From assembly GCA_002069965.1 (NCBI GenBank), contig MWCI01000002.1, positions 1-64,000 on the forward strand: DNA of 64,000 nucleotides, read 5' to 3'. The notes beneath the pieces are model-generated. The model was not told where the DNA came from. It made no database searches and saw only the letters and a program-made list of their open reading frames with translations. Below, one piece after another: positions 32,865 to 41,031 of this stretch (position 1 is its first letter; the number at the start of each line of letters is the position of its first letter). The position numbers and the translations under genes were made by a program. Source of the stretch: Spirochaetes bacterium ADurb.Bin218 (GTDB lineage: Bacteria > Spirochaetota > UBA4802 > UBA5550).

Positions 32865-33641
32865 TTAGCTTTTGATGTTTTCCCTGAGTTTTCTCAAAAA
32901 TTTTACCATCTCATCATAGTCTCTGTCTTTTATAATATGAGTTAGATATGAGAGCTGTTGATTTATGCTCTCAATTTGTTTTAAGGTATAGGGATTGAAA
33001 AGAATCTCAGATACTAAGTAGTCATCTTCAGAGAGAAGTCCCTTTGCAATTTCCATATGCTTTCTAAAGGTTGTTCCAGGTGCATCAATTTTTTTCATGC
33101 AGGCTGCAAATACAAGGGATGAGGCAAAGGGAGTGCTTAGAGAATAAGCAGTTATCTGATCATGCTCCTGGAATGTATATTCATAAATGTTGAGTTTAAC
33201 TCGATTGAAGAGATCATGGAAGAATTGTTTCCCCTCAGGATCTGATTCAGATATTATTATGGCATTTTCTTTGCTAAGATCTCTCACATTGCCAAAGGTA
33301 GGGCCAAACATTGGGTGAGTAGAGGCAAACCTTTTTCCGGATTTTTTGTAATAATCTGCAAGGCCATTTTTAACTGAGGCAATATCCGAGATTATACAAT
33401 TGTCGGATATATAGGGCATTATCTCATCAAAGGCCTCTTCTGTCTTTTGAAGGTTTACACAGTTTATAACCATATCTGGATTAAAATCCTTAGCCTCTTC
33501 GATCTTCATGAAGCGCTTTATATTTATAAAGTGCTTCAGGTTTCTTGGATTTATATCAAATACAGCAACATCATGATCAAAGCATAACTCCTCAGTAAGC
33601 CAGCTTCCCATCTTCCCTGCGCCAAGTATTAATATTTTCAT
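32865..33641 (-). CDS. tyrA: Prephenate dehydrogenase (TyrA), no ACT domain
   Basis: It oxidises prephenate to 4-hydroxyphenylpyruvate for tyrosine. An N-terminal Rossmann motif (ILILGAGKMGSWLTEEL) is followed by SDIASVKNGLADYYKKSG, then STHPMFGPTFGNVRDLS, which carries the catalytic His, then EHDQITAYSLSTPFASSLVF. Length (258 aa) means no regulatory ACT domain is attached. It is the last of eight genes; its start overlaps the pheA stop by one base. No terminator was found before the converging chemoreceptor. Confidence 0.92.
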   Translation of the reverse strand: MKILILGAGKMGSWLTEELCFDHDVAVFDINPRNLKHFINIKRFMKIEEAKDFNPDMVINCVNLQKTEEAFDEIMPYISDNCIISDIASVKNGLADYYKKSGKRFASTHPMFGPTFGNVRDLSKENAIIISESDPEGKQFFHDLFNRVKLNIYEYTFQEHDQITAYSLSTPFASSLVFAACMKKIDAPGTTFRKHMEIAKGLLSEDDYLVSEILFNPYTLKQIESINQQLSYLTHIIKDRDYDEMVKFLRKLRENIKS

Positions 33642-34720
33642 TATAGTTCTCCTTTCATCATATCTTCAGTTACAAAAATTTCATTATAACAGCCCAGTAG
33701 CTTTAGCCCCGATGTTACACCCTCTGCCTGTTTGAGAGCATCAATGACTACAGGGTCAGAATCAGAACCGTCAAAGTCCAGAAGGAATGAATATTGCCCT
33801 GGCTCTGTGGGTATTGATTCAATCCTTGTGAGATTTATTCCAGCCCGTGCAAAGATCTCGAGAGTATTAAATAGAGTTCCAGATTTATGCTCTGTGGTGA
33901 ATGTTATGGAGCATTTATTCCCATGATCAAATTTTCTTTCTTTTGCAAGAATTATAAATCTTGTTCTGTTTATATTTGAGTCTTCAATATTCTCTTTTAG
34001 TATCTCAAGGCTATAAAGCTCAGCTGCCAGTTTACTTGCAATACAGGCTGCCTGACGTGGTTTCATTTCTGTAAGCATTCTTGCGGCACCTGCTGTGTCA
34101 TAAAAAGGAACAGGGACAAGATTGTTTCTGGATATAAACCTTCTGCACTGAGAGAGGGCTTGTGTATGAGAATATACCTCTCTTATCTCTCTGTGATCTG
34201 CCCCTGGGAGCATCATGAGATTGTGGTGTATAGGCATATCAACGGCACCAACAACAACAAGTTCAGTGTTGATCAGCAATTCATTTACAGGACCAACAAT
34301 TCCACCTAAGGTATTTTCAACAGGGACAATGCCATAATCAAACATACCGGAGGTTACTCCTTCAAAAACCCCATTAAAAGTGGTGCATGGTATAGTGAGC
34401 AGTTCTCTATTCCATCTTCTTGCAGCCTCTTCGCTATAGGCGCCATGTTCTCCCTGAAATCCAACAACTTGATAATTCCTTCCCTGAAGCTCTTTGCTCC
34501 ATGAGATAATTAGCTTATAAAGAGGCTCTGTAAAAGATGGCTCCAGCAGGAGGTTGGGAGTGTGTTTTATCTTTTCCAGAATTTCCTTTTCTCTTGCTGT
34601 ATCCTCAATGGCCTTTTTAAATTTATTTGCAAGGAGTGCCTGCTCCATTCTCTCATTTAAGAGTTTGAGTATTTTGGAATCAATCTGATCAATTATGTTT
34701 CTGATCTCTTCTAATTTCAT
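33641..34720 (-). CDS. pheA: Bifunctional chorismate mutase / prephenate dehydratase
   Basis: Residues 1-85 are an AroQ-type mutase (LEEIRNIIDQIDSKILKLLN). Residues 95-270 are the dehydratase (GFQGEHGAYSEEAA, and NINRTRFIILAKE with the catalytic Thr-Arg-Phe). The last 75 residues form an ACT domain (GTLFNTLEIFARAGINLTRI). In known dehydratases the ACT motif is ESRP, which binds phenylalanine; here it is ESIP, so feedback inhibition may be weak. It lies directly after aroC (one base gap) and overlaps tyrA. Confidence 0.95.
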   Translation of the reverse strand: MKLEEIRNIIDQIDSKILKLLNERMEQALLANKFKKAIEDTAREKEILEKIKHTPNLLLEPSFTEPLYKLIISWSKELQGRNYQVVGFQGEHGAYSEEAARRWNRELLTIPCTTFNGVFEGVTSGMFDYGIVPVENTLGGIVGPVNELLINTELVVVGAVDMPIHHNLMMLPGADHREIREVYSHTQALSQCRRFISRNNLVPVPFYDTAGAARMLTEMKPRQAACIASKLAAELYSLEILKENIEDSNINRTRFIILAKERKFDHGNKCSITFTTEHKSGTLFNTLEIFARAGINLTRIESIPTEPGQYSFLLDFDGSDSDPVVIDALKQAEGVTSGLKLLGCYNEIFVTEDMMKGEL

Positions 34721-34721
34721 A

Positions 34722-35714
34722 TTATCTCTCCGTATTATATGATTTATATATTAAATACATATCAGCTGCAACAATTGCAGCGCATGCTTCAAATATGACA
34801 GGGGTGCGTAGCACTATTGCTGAGTCGTGCCTGCCTTTTATGGTAAACTCTTCAATCTGCCCTGTTTTCAGGTTCAATGACTTTTGGCTTTTTGCAATGC
34901 TTGCAGTAGGTTTGATAGCAACTCTGAAAAGGAGATCATTGCCATTGGTTATCCCTCCATTTATGCCACCTGAGTTATTGCTTAGAGTCTTGCCATCACC
35001 TGAAATTATTGGATCATTGTGAATGCTGCCCTTCATGGTAGCAGATTTAAAACCTGAGCCAAATTCTATGGCCTTAACAGCTGGCACAGAAAAAACAAGG
35101 TGGCTCAAGAGAGACTCAAAGGAATCAAAGAACGGCTCACCAAGTCCACATGGGAGATTGGAAACCTTTACCTCTACAATTCCACCAAGGGATTCACCTT
35201 CTTCAATTGCCTCATTGAGAATAGACTCATAATCCTTAGAGCCTCCAATCTCAAGAATTTCTGATTGAAACAAAACATCATGGGGAAGTATTTTTTTTGC
35301 AATGCAACCAGCTGCAACTATTGCAAGGGTAAGTCTTCCAGAAAAATGACCCCCACCTCGTGGATCTGCAAAGCCCTTGAATTTTTTTAATGCAACAAAG
35401 TCAGCATGTCCTGGCCTTGGTATATTTTTCAGTGACTCATAGTCACCAGACCTTGTATTTTTATTTTTAAAAAATATAGTCAGAGGTGATCCTGTTGTTT
35501 TACCATTATAGACTCCACTTAAAATTTCTGGATTGTCATCTTCAATCCGTGGAGTAGTCCCCCTGGCTCCACTTTTTCTTCTGCTTAGATCTGTTGTGAG
35601 ATCTTCCAAGGGGAAAGGTATGCCAGGAGGGCAGCCATCAATTACAACTCCTATCCCCTCTCCATGGGATTCTCCAAATATGGAGATCCTGAATATTCTC
35701 CCAAAGCTATTCAT
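34722..35714 (-). CDS. aroC: Chorismate synthase
   Basis: It makes chorismate from EPSP using reduced FMN. Motifs are FGESHGEGIGVVIDGCPPGI at the N-terminus, SRRKSGARGTTPRIEDD, RPGHADFVALKKF and DPRGGGHFSGRLTLAIVAAG. The C-terminal NNSGGINGGITNG loop is also present. Length (330 aa) is at the short end of the family. Its start overlaps the aroA stop by 4 bases. Confidence 0.96.
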   Translation of the reverse strand: MNSFGRIFRISIFGESHGEGIGVVIDGCPPGIPFPLEDLTTDLSRRKSGARGTTPRIEDDNPEILSGVYNGKTTGSPLTIFFKNKNTRSGDYESLKNIPRPGHADFVALKKFKGFADPRGGGHFSGRLTLAIVAAGCIAKKILPHDVLFQSEILEIGGSKDYESILNEAIEEGESLGGIVEVKVSNLPCGLGEPFFDSFESLLSHLVFSVPAVKAIEFGSGFKSATMKGSIHNDPIISGDGKTLSNNSGGINGGITNGNDLLFRVAIKPTASIAKSQKSLNLKTGQIEEFTIKGRHDSAIVLRTPVIFEACAAIVAADMYLIYKSYNTER

Positions 35715-36958
35715 CTAACCTGACCTCCTATGAGCTTTAGATCTTCAAAAAACTCGCTATATGATTTGCTCACGCACTCCGCATTATTTATAACCACGGG
35801 AGAAGTTGCTCCCAGTGCAGCAATAGCACATGCCATGGCAATTCTGTGATCCCCATGGGAATCAACCTCTCCGCCGGAGATCTCTGAGGATTCTATTATC
35901 ATAGAATCTCCAAAAAGTCTTACCCTTGCCCCTAACTTTTCCAGCTCACTTTTGATGGTCATTGCTCTGTTGCTTTCCTTGTGTGTTAAGCGATCTGTTC
36001 CATGTAAAATAGTCTCTCCTTTGCAATAAAGGGCAAGAGCTGCAAGAGGAGGAAAAAGGTCAGGGCAATCTGATGCGTCAAATTCAAAACCCTTTAGCTC
36101 GCTTCTTGATACATGAATGCAGTCTCCATTTATATGGAGATTGGCTCTTGCCTTTTTAAGGGCTGTGATTATTGCTCTGTCTGGCTGAGTTGATTCCTCT
36201 GCTATTCCATGAACTGTAATCTCTCCAGCAATGGCGCCAGCACATAGCAAAAATGCAGCACCACTCCAGTCTCCTTCAATATTGATTATTCCAGGGACAA
36301 ATTCTTGATTGCCCTTTATTGTGAATTTTTCATGATTTTCCTTTTCTATTAGAACACCAAAGTTTTTTAAAATCTCAATGGTGAGGTCAACGTATTGAGC
36401 GCTTTTAAGATTTTTAACATAGAGGGTTGAATCCTCACTGCACTTTGGCAAAGCCATGAGAAGTCCTGTTATGAACTGAGAGCTTATGCTGCCATCTACA
36501 GTAACTGTTCCACCTTTTAATGTCCCCCATACTTCAATTGGCAGCTTGCTGTTGTTAGATTTGATGTTAGCGCCCAATGCTTTGATTGATTCTTCAATGG
36601 AAGATACTGGTCTTTCCATTAGAGATCTTTCTCCTGTGAGGATAAGCCTTTTGCCTGTGAGAGCAGCAATGGGAGTGAACATTCTGATACAAAGACCTGA
36701 TTCTCCGCAGTTTAATATTTCCTCCTGAGGATTGAGCCCTCCATAGATTGAGACGTAATCAGATTTTTTTGTTATCTTTGCCCCAAGCCCCTGAGCTACT
36801 CTCATAGCAGAGATGGAATCGTCACAAAAGGTAGGGTTTGTAATAAGGGATTCCCCTTTGCTAAGTAAGGCTGCCGCAATGGCTCTTTGCATTGCACTTT
36901 TTGAAGCAGGAGCTTTGAGGCTTCCTTTAATTTTAGAGGGAGAGACGAATTTCTTCAT
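35711..36958 (-). CDS. aroA: 3-Phosphoshikimate 1-carboxyvinyltransferase (EPSP synthase)
   Basis: It adds enolpyruvyl from PEP to shikimate-3-phosphate. The N-terminal KGSLKAPASKSAMQRAIAAA segment carries the binding Lys and Ser. The segment CGESGLCIRMFTPIAALTGK corresponds to the usual LGNAGTAxRP loop but reads CGESGLCIRMF, a variant seen in class II-like enzymes. The C-terminal TDRLTHKESNRA and DSHGDHRIAMACAIAAL motifs are intact. Its start overlaps the end of the aroE-aroK fusion by 26 bases. Confidence 0.94.
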   Translation of the reverse strand: MKKFVSPSKIKGSLKAPASKSAMQRAIAAALLSKGESLITNPTFCDDSISAMRVAQGLGAKITKKSDYVSIYGGLNPQEEILNCGESGLCIRMFTPIAALTGKRLILTGERSLMERPVSSIEESIKALGANIKSNNSKLPIEVWGTLKGGTVTVDGSISSQFITGLLMALPKCSEDSTLYVKNLKSAQYVDLTIEILKNFGVLIEKENHEKFTIKGNQEFVPGIINIEGDWSGAAFLLCAGAIAGEITVHGIAEESTQPDRAIITALKKARANLHINGDCIHVSRSELKGFEFDASDCPDLFPPLAALALYCKGETILHGTDRLTHKESNRAMTIKSELEKLGARVRLFGDSMIIESSEISGGEVDSHGDHRIAMACAIAALGATSPVVINNAECVSKSYSEFFEDLKLIGGQVR

Positions 36959-38228
36959 ATATTAACTCCGCAGTTTTTGTAGGATCCTCTGTTGAGACAA
37001 TGAGCGTCCCGTAAAGAGAGGCGTATAAATTTTTTCTTCTTTCAAACATAACATTAAGTTCCTCTGACGAGGATATGTTTTTTAGAAGAGGTCGTGAGTC
37101 ATCATTTACTCTTTTTAATGTTTCTTCCATGGAGGTATATAGCCAGAAGGGGATTGTTTTTTCCTTTAGAAATTTTCGATTTTCCTCCCTAAGGATAATT
37201 CCTCCTCCGCAAGAGAGGACAAGATTTTTTCTATCAGATAGTTCAAGGAGCACTGAGCTTTCGATCTCTCTGAATTTTTCTTCACCAAATTTTTCAAAGA
37301 TTTCTCTTATGGTCATATTCATCTTATTTTCAATTATAGCGTCTGTATCTACAAAATCAAAATTGAGTCTTTGTGCAAGTGCAACTCCAGTGGAGCTTTT
37401 CCCTGAGGCCATAAATCCAACGAGAGATATTATGGAAGGATTTTCTTTTTGCTGATTAAGAGCATTCTCAAGCAATTGCCTTTCTGGGCAGAAGTTCAAA
37501 AAATGTCTGCAGGCATGAATCCCCTGGTGAATGAGCCATTCCTCTCCTCCAATAAAAGAAAATTGAAGCCCTTCAGCAAGATTACGGTAGTGAGATTTTT
37601 TGTAAGTGGCATCGAAAAATATGGCACCTTTTTTAATATTGGAAATATCAAGGCTGCCTGCCTCATAGGGGATTGTGTTTATAACTACATCTGCATCTTT
37701 AATCAAAGATGAAAGCATATATAGATTTGCAAAGCGAGAGTCTGTTTTTTTTGCTGCACCTTGCCCTTCCTCCTGAAATTTATTAAGAATAATAACATCA
37801 GCCCCATTTTGCCTTAAGCCGTATGCTGCAGCAATTCCAGCACCTCCAGCACCAAGGACAAGGCAATTTTTGCCTTTGAGAGATTTTAATCGCAATAGCA
37901 GAGGTTCTGTCACACCAAAAATATCAGTATTTTCTCCACGGAGAGCCTCATTGTCAGCAATAACAGTGTTTACACTGCCAAGAGCCTTTGCATCATTGGA
38001 TGGGAAATTTATATGGTGGAATATCTTTTCTTTAAATGGAGCAGTGATATTCATTCCATTAAATTTGAGCTCCCTGAAAATCCTTGCAATCTCTTCAGCA
38101 TTTTTTGCACAGAGTCTGATATAACTACCCTTTAGTTTTAAAGTTTTAAAAATTGCCTCAAACATCAAAGGGCTCTTGCTGTGCAAAACAGGGAGGCCAG
38201 CTACACCAAGGAGAATCTCATTTTCCAT
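36933..38228 (-). CDS. aroE-aroK: Fused shikimate dehydrogenase - shikimate kinase
   Basis: Residues 1-258 are AroE: HSKSPLMFEAIFK binds shikimate, Lys66 is in NITAPFKEK, Asp102 is in GENTDIFGV, and the NADP fold is VLGAGGAGIAAAYGL. Residues 264-431 are AroK: P-loop GFMASGKSS (from 271), then DFVDTDAIIENKMNMTIREI, then the CGGGI motif and RPL lid. Both halves keep their catalytic residues, so one chain should do the two sequential steps dehydroshikimate to shikimate-3-phosphate. No frameshift links them. Its start overlaps the aroD end by 11 bases. Confidence 0.95.
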   Translation of the reverse strand: MENEILLGVAGLPVLHSKSPLMFEAIFKTLKLKGSYIRLCAKNAEEIARIFRELKFNGMNITAPFKEKIFHHINFPSNDAKALGSVNTVIADNEALRGENTDIFGVTEPLLLRLKSLKGKNCLVLGAGGAGIAAAYGLRQNGADVIILNKFQEEGQGAAKKTDSRFANLYMLSSLIKDADVVINTIPYEAGSLDISNIKKGAIFFDATYKKSHYRNLAEGLQFSFIGGEEWLIHQGIHACRHFLNFCPERQLLENALNQQKENPSIISLVGFMASGKSSTGVALAQRLNFDFVDTDAIIENKMNMTIREIFEKFGEEKFREIESSVLLELSDRKNLVLSCGGGIILREENRKFLKEKTIPFWLYTSMEETLKRVNDDSRPLLKNISSSEELNVMFERRKNLYASLYGTLIVSTEDPTKTAELIYEEIRLSL

Positions 38229-38865
38229 TGGAACCTCTTATGAGATCAATTATTTTTGTGAGAGTGACTGAATCAATCTGTCCAGGAGCAGTGCCTTTTC
38301 CTTCATCAATAGAGGCGTATGTAAAGGGAGCACCAAGAAGTATTGCAGCAACCCTTGTTATTTTTCCAGCCTCTCCCATTCCTATGGAAATTATTGGTCT
38401 ATCAAAGGAATAGAGCGATAGAATCCTTGCAGCATCACAGTAAGATGAATTGAAACATGCAATTTTAGCAATGTCAGCACCACTATCAAAGCACCAGTTT
38501 ATGAGCAATTCAAGCTCTCTCATAGAAGGGGTCTTTTCATAATCGTGATAGGATACTATCGTTTTGCATTTATGAGTGGAGGCGCAATCCTTTATGTATT
38601 TTTTGAAGGAGTCGCTATTTTCTACTTCAACGTCTACATAAGTTGCGCCGCATTCAATGGCCCTGGCAAGTGTTTTCATTCTGAGCTCATCATCTGCCTT
38701 TTTACAGGGCCTGAAAGTTGCTACTGTGTTTCCACAGCCAAATAGCTCTGGAAGATGACTCTCTTCAAAGTTTAATCTATCAAGGCGTATTTCACAGATC
38801 TCGGCTCTGGAAGCAATGTTACAGGCCTCTTCAATAGATACATCAGCTATGCTTACACAAATCAT
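38218..38865 (-). CDS. aroD: Type I 3-dehydroquinate dehydratase
   Basis: This class I aldolase uses a Schiff-base lysine. ICEIRLDRLNF carries the substrate Glu/Arg pair, TIVSYHDYEKTPSM the catalytic His, and GADIAKIACFNS the catalytic Lys. SIGMGEAGKITRVAAILLGA, FTYASIDEGKGTAPGQI complete the fold. Length (215 aa) is slightly shorter than E. coli AroD. It overlaps aroB by 4 bases. Confidence 0.93.
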   Translation of the reverse strand: MICVSIADVSIEEACNIASRAEICEIRLDRLNFEESHLPELFGCGNTVATFRPCKKADDELRMKTLARAIECGATYVDVEVENSDSFKKYIKDCASTHKCKTIVSYHDYEKTPSMRELELLINWCFDSGADIAKIACFNSSYCDAARILSLYSFDRPIISIGMGEAGKITRVAAILLGAPFTYASIDEGKGTAPGQIDSVTLTKIIDLIRGSNGK

Positions 38866-39923
38866 AGATGGCCACCTTTTAGTTCATTTTTTAGCAATTT
38901 CTCAAAATCTACAAAGTCAATCCCTTTAATCTCTGGTCTCCCAGGCTCATTAAGTAGAATAAAACTAACGCTGGAGCTATGACCTTTTTTATCTGCCTGC
39001 ACAGCCTCCATAATTAAAGGTATATCTTCTTTGGATATTGCAGATTTCAGGTCAACAGGGAGATTAAAGAATTTTAAAAGAGCTATTATCTCCTTTGCGC
39101 AAGTAGCATTCATTCCTGCAAGGTGTAAAGAAAGAGAAATGCTAAAGCTTATTCCAAGGGAAACAGCTAATCCGTGTTTAATTCCCTTTACTTTTTCTAT
39201 GGCATGACCAAGTGTATGACCAAGGTTTAGAATTCTTCTTAAGTCAGTTTCCCTTTCATCCAGCTCAACAATTTTAGCTTTAAATAGAATAGATTTATAA
39301 ATAGCCTCAGATATGGTTTCCATATCCATGGATTTTATTTTTTCTTTACAGGAGGTAATAAAGGAGTAAAAATCTCCTCCTTCAAGTAAAGCACTCTTAA
39401 CAAGCTCAGCCAGACCATTGACGTATTCTTCCTTGGGAAGAGTTGCAAGCATAGAGTGATCGCATATAACAAATTCAGGCTGAGCAAATACCCCTGCCAT
39501 GTTTTTTGTCATGTCAATATTGACTCCGTTTTTACCGCCAACGCTTGCATCCACCTGCGATAGAAGAGAGGTAGACACAAAGCCAAAGGGGATGCCCCTC
39601 ATAAAAATTGAGGCAGAAAATCCAGCAATATCAGATACAATTCCACCACCAATTCCAATCAAAGTAGTTTTGCGAGTGCAGTGCAGTTCTATCATTTTTT
39701 TTAGAATATATTCCACAGTGGAAAGATTTTTAATTTCCTCCCCAGTGCCAAGGATAATCACAGGGTATGATGAAAATTTATCTCCATAGTATCTATAGAT
39801 ATTTGTATCAGTTACAATCACGCTTTTAGAGGGATGAGCAAAGTCAACAATAGATGACAGGCTACCACCGCAAAAAACTCTTGATACCTTATTTTCAAGA
39901 GTAATTTTAATTTCCCTTTGCAT
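38862..39923 (-). CDS. aroB: 3-Dehydroquinate synthase
   Basis: It forms the first ring from DAHP using NAD and a metal ion. NAD-binding GIGGGIVSDIAGFSASIFMR, then PFGFVSTSLLSQVDASVGGK, then metal-site NGLAELVKSALL and NLGHTLGHAIEKVKGIKHG are all present. Length (353 aa) is normal. It overlaps the DAHP synthase stop by one base and aroD by four, so expression is coupled. Confidence 0.95.
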   Translation of the reverse strand: MQREIKITLENKVSRVFCGGSLSSIVDFAHPSKSVIVTDTNIYRYYGDKFSSYPVIILGTGEEIKNLSTVEYILKKMIELHCTRKTTLIGIGGGIVSDIAGFSASIFMRGIPFGFVSTSLLSQVDASVGGKNGVNIDMTKNMAGVFAQPEFVICDHSMLATLPKEEYVNGLAELVKSALLEGGDFYSFITSCKEKIKSMDMETISEAIYKSILFKAKIVELDERETDLRRILNLGHTLGHAIEKVKGIKHGLAVSLGISFSISLSLHLAGMNATCAKEIIALLKFFNLPVDLKSAISKEDIPLIMEAVQADKKGHSSSVSFILLNEPGRPEIKGIDFVDFEKLLKNELKGGHL

Positions 39924-40759
39924 CAGGCCTCCTTGCTCTCCTGATTAATAGAAGTGTTCATAAATTCCTTAAGCTTGAGGACCTTTGCAGTGAGTTTTGA
40001 AAACTGCTCAGGGGTTAACTGTTGTTCTGCATCACTTAGAGCCTCCTGGGGATTTATGTGCACCTCAATTAAAAGTCCATCTGCACCTGCTGCAACTGCT
40101 GCAAGGCTCATGGGTTCAATGAGGCTAATTTTGCCTGTCCCATGGGATGGATCAACCATGATAGGAAGATGAGTTAGCTCTTTAATCGCAGGAACAATGC
40201 TCAGATCAAGTGTATTCCTTGTGTAGGTTTCAAAGGTTCTGATCCCTCTTTCACAAAGTATTACATTTGGATTGCCCTCGGCCAGAATATACTCGGCACA
40301 ATTAAGCCATTCTCTTAAAGTTGAGTACATGCCCCGTTTAAGAAGCACAGGTTTGCTTGATTTGCCAACTTCTTTTAGAAGGGAAAAGTTTTGCATGTTC
40401 CTTGCGCCAATTTGCAGAATATCTGCATATTCACAGACCCATGAAACGTCTCTTGGATCTATTACCTCTGTTATAATGGGAAGCCCTGTCTTTTGTTTTG
40501 CCTTTTCCAGAATCTTTAATCCTTTAAGTCCAAGCCCCTGAAAGTCATAAGGAGAGGTCCGTGGTTTAAAAGCCCCACCTCTAAGCATATTACCCCCAGC
40601 CTTTTTTACAGCAATGGCAGTTTGAATGGTTTGTTCTTCACTTTCAACACTGCAGGGCCCTCCTACAATTATAAAATCCTTCCCAACTTCGCAATTTCCT
40701 ACTTTAAAAGTACTTCTTTTGCCTGATTCATCAGATTTAACAAGTTTCAGGTTTTTCAT
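39923..40759 (-). CDS. aroF: DAHP synthase, class I-beta (KDO8P-synthase-like), no regulatory domain
   Basis: It joins PEP and erythrose-4-phosphate, the committed step. Signature segments are [72 protein letters not shown] and VDPSHGTGK. At 278 aa it matches the bare catalytic barrel and lacks the roughly 70-residue N-terminal ferredoxin-like domain that gives feedback control in enzymes such as that of Thermotoga. It is the first structural gene of the operon. AAGGAG lies 8 bases before the ATG, just downstream of the attenuator. Confidence 0.95.
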
Positions 40760-40796
40760 CTCTTTAACTCCTTAGTGATATGAGCCTTTTGACCCT

Positions 40797-40859
40797 AAAA
40801 AAAAAGACCCTTCGAGTTTTATCGAAGGGTCTTTCTGTATATAATACCGATAAAACTCG
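40797..40859 (-). promoter_or_regulatory. Phe/Tyr attenuator: terminator with mutually exclusive antiterminator
   Basis: On the minus strand, AAAGACCCTTCGA and TCGAAGGGTCTTT (plus positions 40822-40834 and 40803-40815) form a 13-bp stem with loop TAAAAC, followed by a run of T's: an intrinsic terminator 38 bases before the first enzyme gene. Immediately upstream, CGAGTTTTATCG (40848-40859) is perfectly complementary over 12 bases to CGATAAAACTCG (40813-40824), which covers the terminator loop and inner stem. Only one structure can form. The upstream arm starts two bases after the leader-peptide stop, so a ribosome that reaches the stop would hide it. Confidence 0.93.
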
Positions 40860-40861
40860 TG

Positions 40862-40978
40862 CTACGCCGATATGTAATATCCGTAAAAATAAAAATAGAA
40901 ATAGCAAAAGCCAAAGGAAAATGCCTTTGGCTGGGCAAGCACGAAGGAATTTCTGGTATGTTTTGTAATATTCTTCAT
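40862..40978 (-). CDS. Phe/Tyr-rich leader peptide of the aromatic operon (38 aa)
   Basis: ATG at 40978 and TAG at 40862-40864 enclose 38 codons. The product begins MKNITKHTRNSFVLAQPKA and continues FSFGFCYFYFYFYGYYIS, ending A. Residues 20-35 contain 6 Phe and 6 Tyr in 16; there is no Trp. The ribosome-binding site is weak (AGAG about 9 bases upstream). A 9-bp hairpin (AGCCAAAGG / CCTTTGGCT, plus positions 40909-40932) lies in the mRNA just before and into the aromatic run and could pause polymerase. Low charged tRNA-Phe or tRNA-Tyr would stall the ribosome in the run, freeing the antiterminator arm. Confidence 0.93.
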   Translation of the reverse strand: MKNITKHTRNSFVLAQPKAFSFGFCYFYFYFYGYYISA

Positions 40979-41002
40979 GGGTCTTTACTCTAATGAAGAG
41001 AG

Positions 41003-41031
41003 CTAATACTTCCGACTTCAAAGTCTGTCAA
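41003..41031 (-). promoter_or_regulatory. Promoter of the aromatic operon
   Basis: On the minus strand, TTGACA (41026-41031) and TATTAG (41003-41008) are 17 bases apart, placing the start of transcription near 40996, about 18 bases before the leader ATG. The spacer contains the inverted repeat GACTTTGAAGTC, which might be an operator. Confidence 0.75.

Follow-up and report, generated by a model that had tools for sequence, protein, structure and literature searches.

A Phe/Tyr-rich leader peptide and alternative RNA stems indicate ribosome-mediated attenuation of an eight-gene aromatic amino acid operon in a spirochaete

We analyzed a window of 64,000 nucleotides (contig MWCI01000002.1, positions 1 to 64,000, Spirochaetes bacterium ADurb.Bin218) and, from comparison with related genomes, hold with strong confidence that a leader element on its minus strand is a ribosome-mediated transcription attenuator. 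The element would very probably turn its operon on when charged tRNA for Phe/Tyr runs low, reporting charged tRNA-Phe and probably charged tRNA-Tyr as well. For Spirochaetota, this indicates that an entire shikimate-to-Phe/Tyr operon is under ribosome-mediated attenuation. The nearest genomes, those of the Spirochaetia bacteria UBA5550 and UBA5763, agree with an earlier assignment of this DNA to a probable spirochaete. The features of the locus are as follows.

41003..41031, minus strand: candidate sigma-70-type promoter, TTGACA-17-TATTAG (from sequence)
40862..40978, minus strand: leader peptide ORF, 38 codons plus TAG, MKNITKHTRNSFVLAQPKAFSFGFCYFYFYFYGYYISA (from sequence; homologous leaders in L003-L008)
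40909..40932, minus strand: hairpin within the ORF, AGCCAAAGG-cattTT-CCTTTGGCT, then U-rich Phe/Tyr codons (similar stems in relatives)
40874..40921, minus strand: control codons 20-35, with 6 Phe and 6 Tyr (from sequence)
40848..40859, minus strand: antiterminator 5' arm (arm 1), CGAGTTTTATCG, 2 nt past the stop codon
40813..40824, minus strand: antiterminator 3' arm (arm 3), CGATAAAACTCG, equal to the terminator loop plus the three innermost pairs; pairs with 40848-40859
40797..40834, minus strand: intrinsic terminator, 13-bp stem, 6-nt loop, T9 (from sequence; covariation in seven species)
40791..40795, minus strand: GGGTC immediately past the T-run, the complement of GACCC (40983-40979), which directly precedes the leader ATG
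39923..40759, minus strand: aroF, DAHP synthase (Pfam, DAHP_synth_1), first gene of the operon
32865..39923, minus strand: aroB, aroD (type I), aroE-aroK fusion, aroA, aroC, chorismate mutase-prephenate dehydratase-ACT, prephenate dehydrogenase (Pfam)

Pfam assigned the first four products of the operon as DAHP synthase, 3-dehydroquinate synthase, type I dehydroquinase, and a shikimate dehydrogenase-shikimate kinase fusion, and the last four as EPSP synthase, chorismate synthase, chorismate mutase-prephenate dehydratase-ACT, and prephenate dehydrogenase. This agrees with the eight genes from DAHP synthase on that had been mentioned in a preliminary description made from the letters alone. Each of the eight adjoins or overlaps its neighbor, and by its gene content the operon reaches the last steps before Phe and Tyr, past prephenate. 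No trp gene is among its members.

The −35 element TTGACA (41031-41026) and the −10 element TATTAG (41008-41003) are separated by a 17-nt spacer on the minus strand. The −10 element matches the consensus at only four of six bases and lacks the final T, which is why a promoter scan of the region did not list TTGACA-17-TATTAG. In six of six relatives the −35 TTGACA is identical, with a −10 that is weak and variable. The spacer contains GACTTTGAAGTC (41014-41025, minus strand), and GAC-N6-GTC occurs at the same place in L003, L004, and L006; this motif is a possible operator. In the predicted translation of the leader, 12 of the 16 codons at residues 20-35 specify Phe or Tyr, and 2 nt separate the stop codon (TAG, 40864-40862) from CGAGTTTTATCG. 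No strong Shine-Dalgarno sequence was found upstream of the leader ATG, either in the window or in the relatives. Runs of six F/Y codons matched 64 times in the same genome versus 71 times in a reversed control. An F/Y run alone therefore proves little, since such runs (TWY codons) are common in an AT-rich genome; we judged the leader real because its elements occur in combination and are conserved in relatives.

The leader RNA folds better than dinucleotide shuffles of itself (z = −8.3, with 0 of 200 shuffles as good). CGAGTTTTATCG (40859-40848) and CGATAAAACTCG (40824-40813) are perfectly complementary over 12 bp, and the terminator, AAAGACCCTTCGA-TAAAAC-TCGAAGGGTCTTT (40834-40803) with T9 at 40805-40797, is located between the leader ORF and aroF, the first structural gene. 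Most of these parts had been proposed in the preliminary description: the promoter (with the reservation that its −10 is weak), the 38-codon leader (6 Phe and 6 Tyr among residues 20-35), the stop two bases before the antiterminator arm, and the perfect 12-bp antiterminator are all present where it had placed them. It had also called the 13-bp terminator exclusive of the antiterminator. The stem and T-run stand, whereas exclusiveness has to be qualified: the antiterminator 3' arm overlaps only the terminator loop and three innermost base pairs, and exclusion is therefore steric or kinetic; the 5' arm is not captured as a whole.

Two further pairings involve the leader. The hairpin within the ORF has counterparts at the same place in L003 and L005 (CCGAAG/CTTTGG) and in L008 (CTGAAG/CTTCAG), and we regard it as a candidate RNA polymerase pause hairpin. 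The GACCC/GGGTC pairing encloses the whole leader; complementarity was greater within than between species (10 of 720 permutations were as good), although it was weak in L005. This pairing is a candidate long-range closing stem of the read-through RNA, in which it could shut leader translation. A protector (1:2) stem, which hides arm 1 after ribosome release, is typical of trp-type attenuators and not required of all; no conserved stem of this kind was found in the seven species compared. Folding predicted a stem that competes with the antiterminator in L005 only, and elsewhere among the seven the antiterminator forms in untranslated RNA.

From the parts, their conservation, covariation, and geometry, we infer stalling, a kinetic switch, and sensing of both amino acids, as follows. 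Transcription would start near 40996, with the ribosome trailing the polymerase along the leader ORF, and the in-ORF hairpin would probably pause the polymerase while the ribosome loads. With Phe and Tyr plentiful, the ribosome would get to the stop codon and cover most of the 12-nt arm 1, so that the terminator would form and transcription would end at the T-run. The leading edge of a ribosome lies about 14 nt ahead; stalled at any of codons 20-35, the ribosome would thus have its edge short of arm 1 and leave that arm free. Free arm 1 would then pair with CGATAAAACTCG once this is made, before the terminator 3' arm exists, and polymerase would read through into the eight genes. RNA folding, a check proposed along with the preliminary description, gave one structure or the other according to ribosome position: the terminator with a ribosome at the stop codon (7/7 species), and the antiterminator with one stalled in the Phe/Tyr run and RNA up to the end of arm 3 (7/7 species). 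Because the terminator is the more stable structure at equilibrium in folding, the switch would have to be kinetic.

Six other species (L003-L008) have the same leader before the same gene, making seven species with the window. Across all species pairs, the 179 pairs of aligned Phe/Tyr codons showed no first-position changes, 37 second-position changes (all between Phe and Tyr), and 64 third-position changes (all between T and C). Transversions, which at the third position of a Phe or Tyr codon would give Leu or stop, were absent, and every change at these codons was either synonymous or a Phe/Tyr swap. The antiterminator arm lies directly past the stop codon in seven of seven species. Stem pairing was counted from a hand alignment; a MAFFT alignment misplaced the arms of L006 and L008. 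By this count, 89 of 91 terminator cells are paired in seven species, with double changes at three pairs, and 65 of 72 antiterminator cells are paired (12 positions, six species; slid control, 24-33 of 68), with double changes at two positions. The antiterminator of L008 has its own register, in which 10 pairs are kept and a changed base of the terminator loop is matched by a change in the partner arm. Base C40824 belongs to both stems: arm 1, arm 3, and arm 4 carry G/C/G in the window and A/T/A in L005, L006, and L007, whereas L003 and L004 have lost the antiterminator pair at this base, and that one only. These patterns suggest that both alternative structures are under selection, and the double covariation at base 40824 is the strongest sequence evidence for it. 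The attenuator reading thus survived the comparison with relatives that had been proposed for it at the outset, with the codons and both stems kept in all six.

The same comparisons bear on other explanations of the locus. TWY codon runs are frequent enough in this genome that the leader could have been a chance ORF in AT-rich DNA next to the upstream chemotaxis gene's terminator. Conservation, covariation, and a constant geometry across the seven species argue against this, as does the enrichment of F/Y ORFs upstream of DAHP synthase (see below); we give a chance ORF practically no weight and consider it ruled out by the comparative data. A tRNA-sensing T-box or a metabolite riboswitch was also considered, and T-boxes are known to control aromatic genes in Firmicutes. 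However, the conserved part of the leader is coding sequence, and Rfam found no family at its gathering score: none came near that score in the window, and among the related leaders tried only an unrelated tRNA reached it. This reading is largely refuted, and we regard it as exceedingly improbable.

Two other explanations accept the leader and differ in how it would act. Control might be exerted mainly on aroF translation, or on coupling between the leader and aroF, with the terminator minor or constitutive. The covarying long-range pairing that links the region of the leader start with the stretch past the T-run is in keeping with such a role, but aroF is separated from the leader by a covarying 13-bp terminator with T9, and its Shine-Dalgarno sequence is positioned outside the switching stems; we consider translational control very unlikely. 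Alternatively, the leader could be an arrest peptide, as in TnaC: the ribosome would be stalled by its nascent chain or by a free ligand, and not by slow decoding of hungry codons. The peptide is conserved across its 36 to 38 residues in six of the seven species and K-S-F-x-F-G is fixed before the run, as might be expected of such a peptide. However, the run tolerates free exchange of Phe and Tyr, the C terminus past the run is variable, and distant relatives retain the aromatic codons only. The K-S-F-x-F-G segment and the in-ORF hairpin occupy the same stretch, so that the conservation of this segment is explained at the level of RNA. We consider an arrest peptide very unlikely and retain ribosome-mediated attenuation as the preferred reading.

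Other aromatic genes were also inspected. In the same genome, trpE is preceded by a leader (L225, G000:C62) encoding a WWW peptide, MRNMILNKFWWWQALYF, with terminator-like hairpins after it, and WWW leaders also precede trpE in the relatives L221, L223, L224, L226, L228, L229, and L230. A Trp leader on trp in the same genome fits the lack of Trp codons in the aro leader. Such a division of labor, with a Phe/Tyr leader on the aro-phe-tyr operon and a Trp leader on trp, supports the attenuator reading and suggests that these spirochaetes regulate aromatic amino acid synthesis largely by attenuation. The pheST genes were considered as a further attenuated operon and dropped, since the upstream regions of pheS in 12 genomes contained no convincing F/Y leader. 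A palindrome, ATGTTTCTATATATAGAAACAT, and close variants of it are conserved just upstream of the trp leader or the trpE start in L225, L222, L226, and L227; from its sequence it looks like a repressor operator.

The enterobacterial pheL/pheA, pheST, and trp attenuators, like the window leader, combine a leader peptide rich in product codons with a choice between antiterminator and terminator. Each of them senses one amino acid, whereas the window leader has codons for both Phe and Tyr. The textbook antiterminator takes the 5' arm of the terminator and the textbook layout includes a competing 1:2 stem; the window antiterminator takes the loop and three pairs, and the seven species yielded no conserved 1:2 stem. 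Multivalent attenuators are represented in Escherichia coli by ilvGMEDA (Ile/Val/Leu) and thrABC (Thr/Ile). In these too, a single leader carries codons for more than one end product of a branched pathway, but the pathways and organisms differ from those of the Phe/Tyr leader of the window and the Phe/Tyr/Trp leaders of several relatives. The Rfam model of the enterobacterial pheA leader (RF01859, Phe_leader) scored 18.5 bits on the window against a gathering score of 55.

Closer in content is AroR of Corynebacterium glutamicum, a Phe-Tyr-Phe leader before an aroF (DAHP synthase) operon, where a stalled ribosome relieves attenuation (PMC4046766; PMC11802643 and PMC7356990, citing Neshat et al. 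2014). AroR resembles the window leader by description: in both, a DAHP synthase operon is preceded by a small ORF that contains Phe and Tyr codons. Homology is not implied. AroR has Phe-Tyr-Phe only and belongs to an actinobacterium, whereas the spirochaete leader has 12 of 16 such codons and precedes an operon that, unlike that of AroR, consists of eight genes down to prephenate dehydratase and dehydrogenase. According to a review, AroR responds to Phe limitation and shows no response to Tyr limitation (PMC11802643). Tyr codons therefore need not mean Tyr sensing, and the dense Phe/Tyr alternation in the window lets one ask whether a single leader integrates two tRNAs, given that AroR reportedly follows Phe only. 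The uORFC-13-1 motif of Acholeplasma is a Phe-coding uORF followed by a terminator before aroF (PMC8632094) and shares these features with the window leader. It is confined to Acholeplasma and environmental sequences and has at least one Phe codon, with no Phe/Tyr run described (PMC8632094). The earlier suggestion that the window element may be undescribed goes too far as regards the concept, which AroR (PMC4046766; PMC11802643, citing Neshat et al. 2014) and the Acholeplasma motif (PMC8632094) precede. Both the principle and the combination of a Phe/Tyr leader with DAHP synthase are already known, and the window element is a well-supported new example. A 2010 survey placed leader-peptide systems in Proteobacteria, Actinobacteria, and, newly, Firmicutes only (PMC2965389). 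Among the papers searched, we found no published amino acid leader-peptide attenuator in Spirochaetota; a search of the searchable literature, with subscription papers outside it, likewise found none on leader-peptide attenuation in spirochaetes or archaea. The broad distribution of aromatic DAHP synthase leaders is apparently unreported.

That distribution was examined in regions upstream of DAHP synthase genes. Of 101 such regions, 27 contained a short ORF in which 7 or more of 12 residues were F/Y, versus 0.55 in shuffles; by the same threshold, the reversed sequences of these regions gave 6 and the reverse complements 2. Among the residue sets tried, the excess over shuffles was strongest for F/Y, with other pairs far smaller. 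Within Spirochaetota, 32 of 106 DAHP synthase loci, in about ten of 32 sampled families (11 counted), passed a combined count-plus-shuffle test, with two hits doubtful (L205 in family f9 and L155 in f35). A terminator follows closely behind the leader in 20 of the 32 passing loci versus 6 of the remaining 74. Approximately half of the spirochaete positives also contain Trp (e.g., YFYFWYFYFY). Leaders with Phe, Tyr, and Trp were seen in other spirochaete families (L094, L097-L102, L106, L163, L172, L182, L188, and L189; YFYFWYFYFYK and AYFYYYWYYFF), and from these sequences a single leader may cover all three end products. DAHP synthase leaders in Desulfobacterota (L030, L044, L063, L072, and L073) have a conserved FRSVHP ending. 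This conservation is accounted for at the RNA level, since the codons concerned make up the antiterminator arm, opposite CGGGTGGA in the terminator.

In Micrarchaeota/DPANN, too, a conserved aromatic ORF (consensus ..FF.FFSFSY..; e.g., MTIARSRWQNFFYYFSFSYRYQENHK and MAFAREKKAWNGFFYFFSFSYA) stands before a related DAHP synthase operon.

L233-L253, also L022, L024, L025, L033, L036, L040, L043, L071, and L076: Micrarchaeota/DPANN DAHP synthase loci with such an ORF

We tentatively propose, at somewhat less than even probability, that the window element is one case of a large unrecognized set of Phe/Tyr(/Trp) leader-peptide switches spanning about ten spirochaete families, Desulfobacterota, others, and Micrarchaeota, with the version in Micrarchaeota either transferred or independently evolved. 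The archaeal element could be a leader-peptide switch in Archaea, with contamination a possible source of these sequences. If this is true, the Micrarchaeota version, in which a hairpin with a U-rich loop replaces the bacterial terminator, would be a ribosome-read leader-peptide switch in an archaeon, and this look-alike would open leader-peptide control in Archaea to direct testing. The archaeal leaders showed no bacterial terminator. As to archaeal origin, archaeal L24e was present in 9 of 10 genomes tested, and an archaeal-type DRG GTPase is encoded close to one of the DAHP synthase operons. In 18 archaeal leaders, the end of the ORF pairs with a downstream arm around the U-rich loop; the stem covaries, and pairing within species exceeds that with shuffled partners (p ~5e-5).
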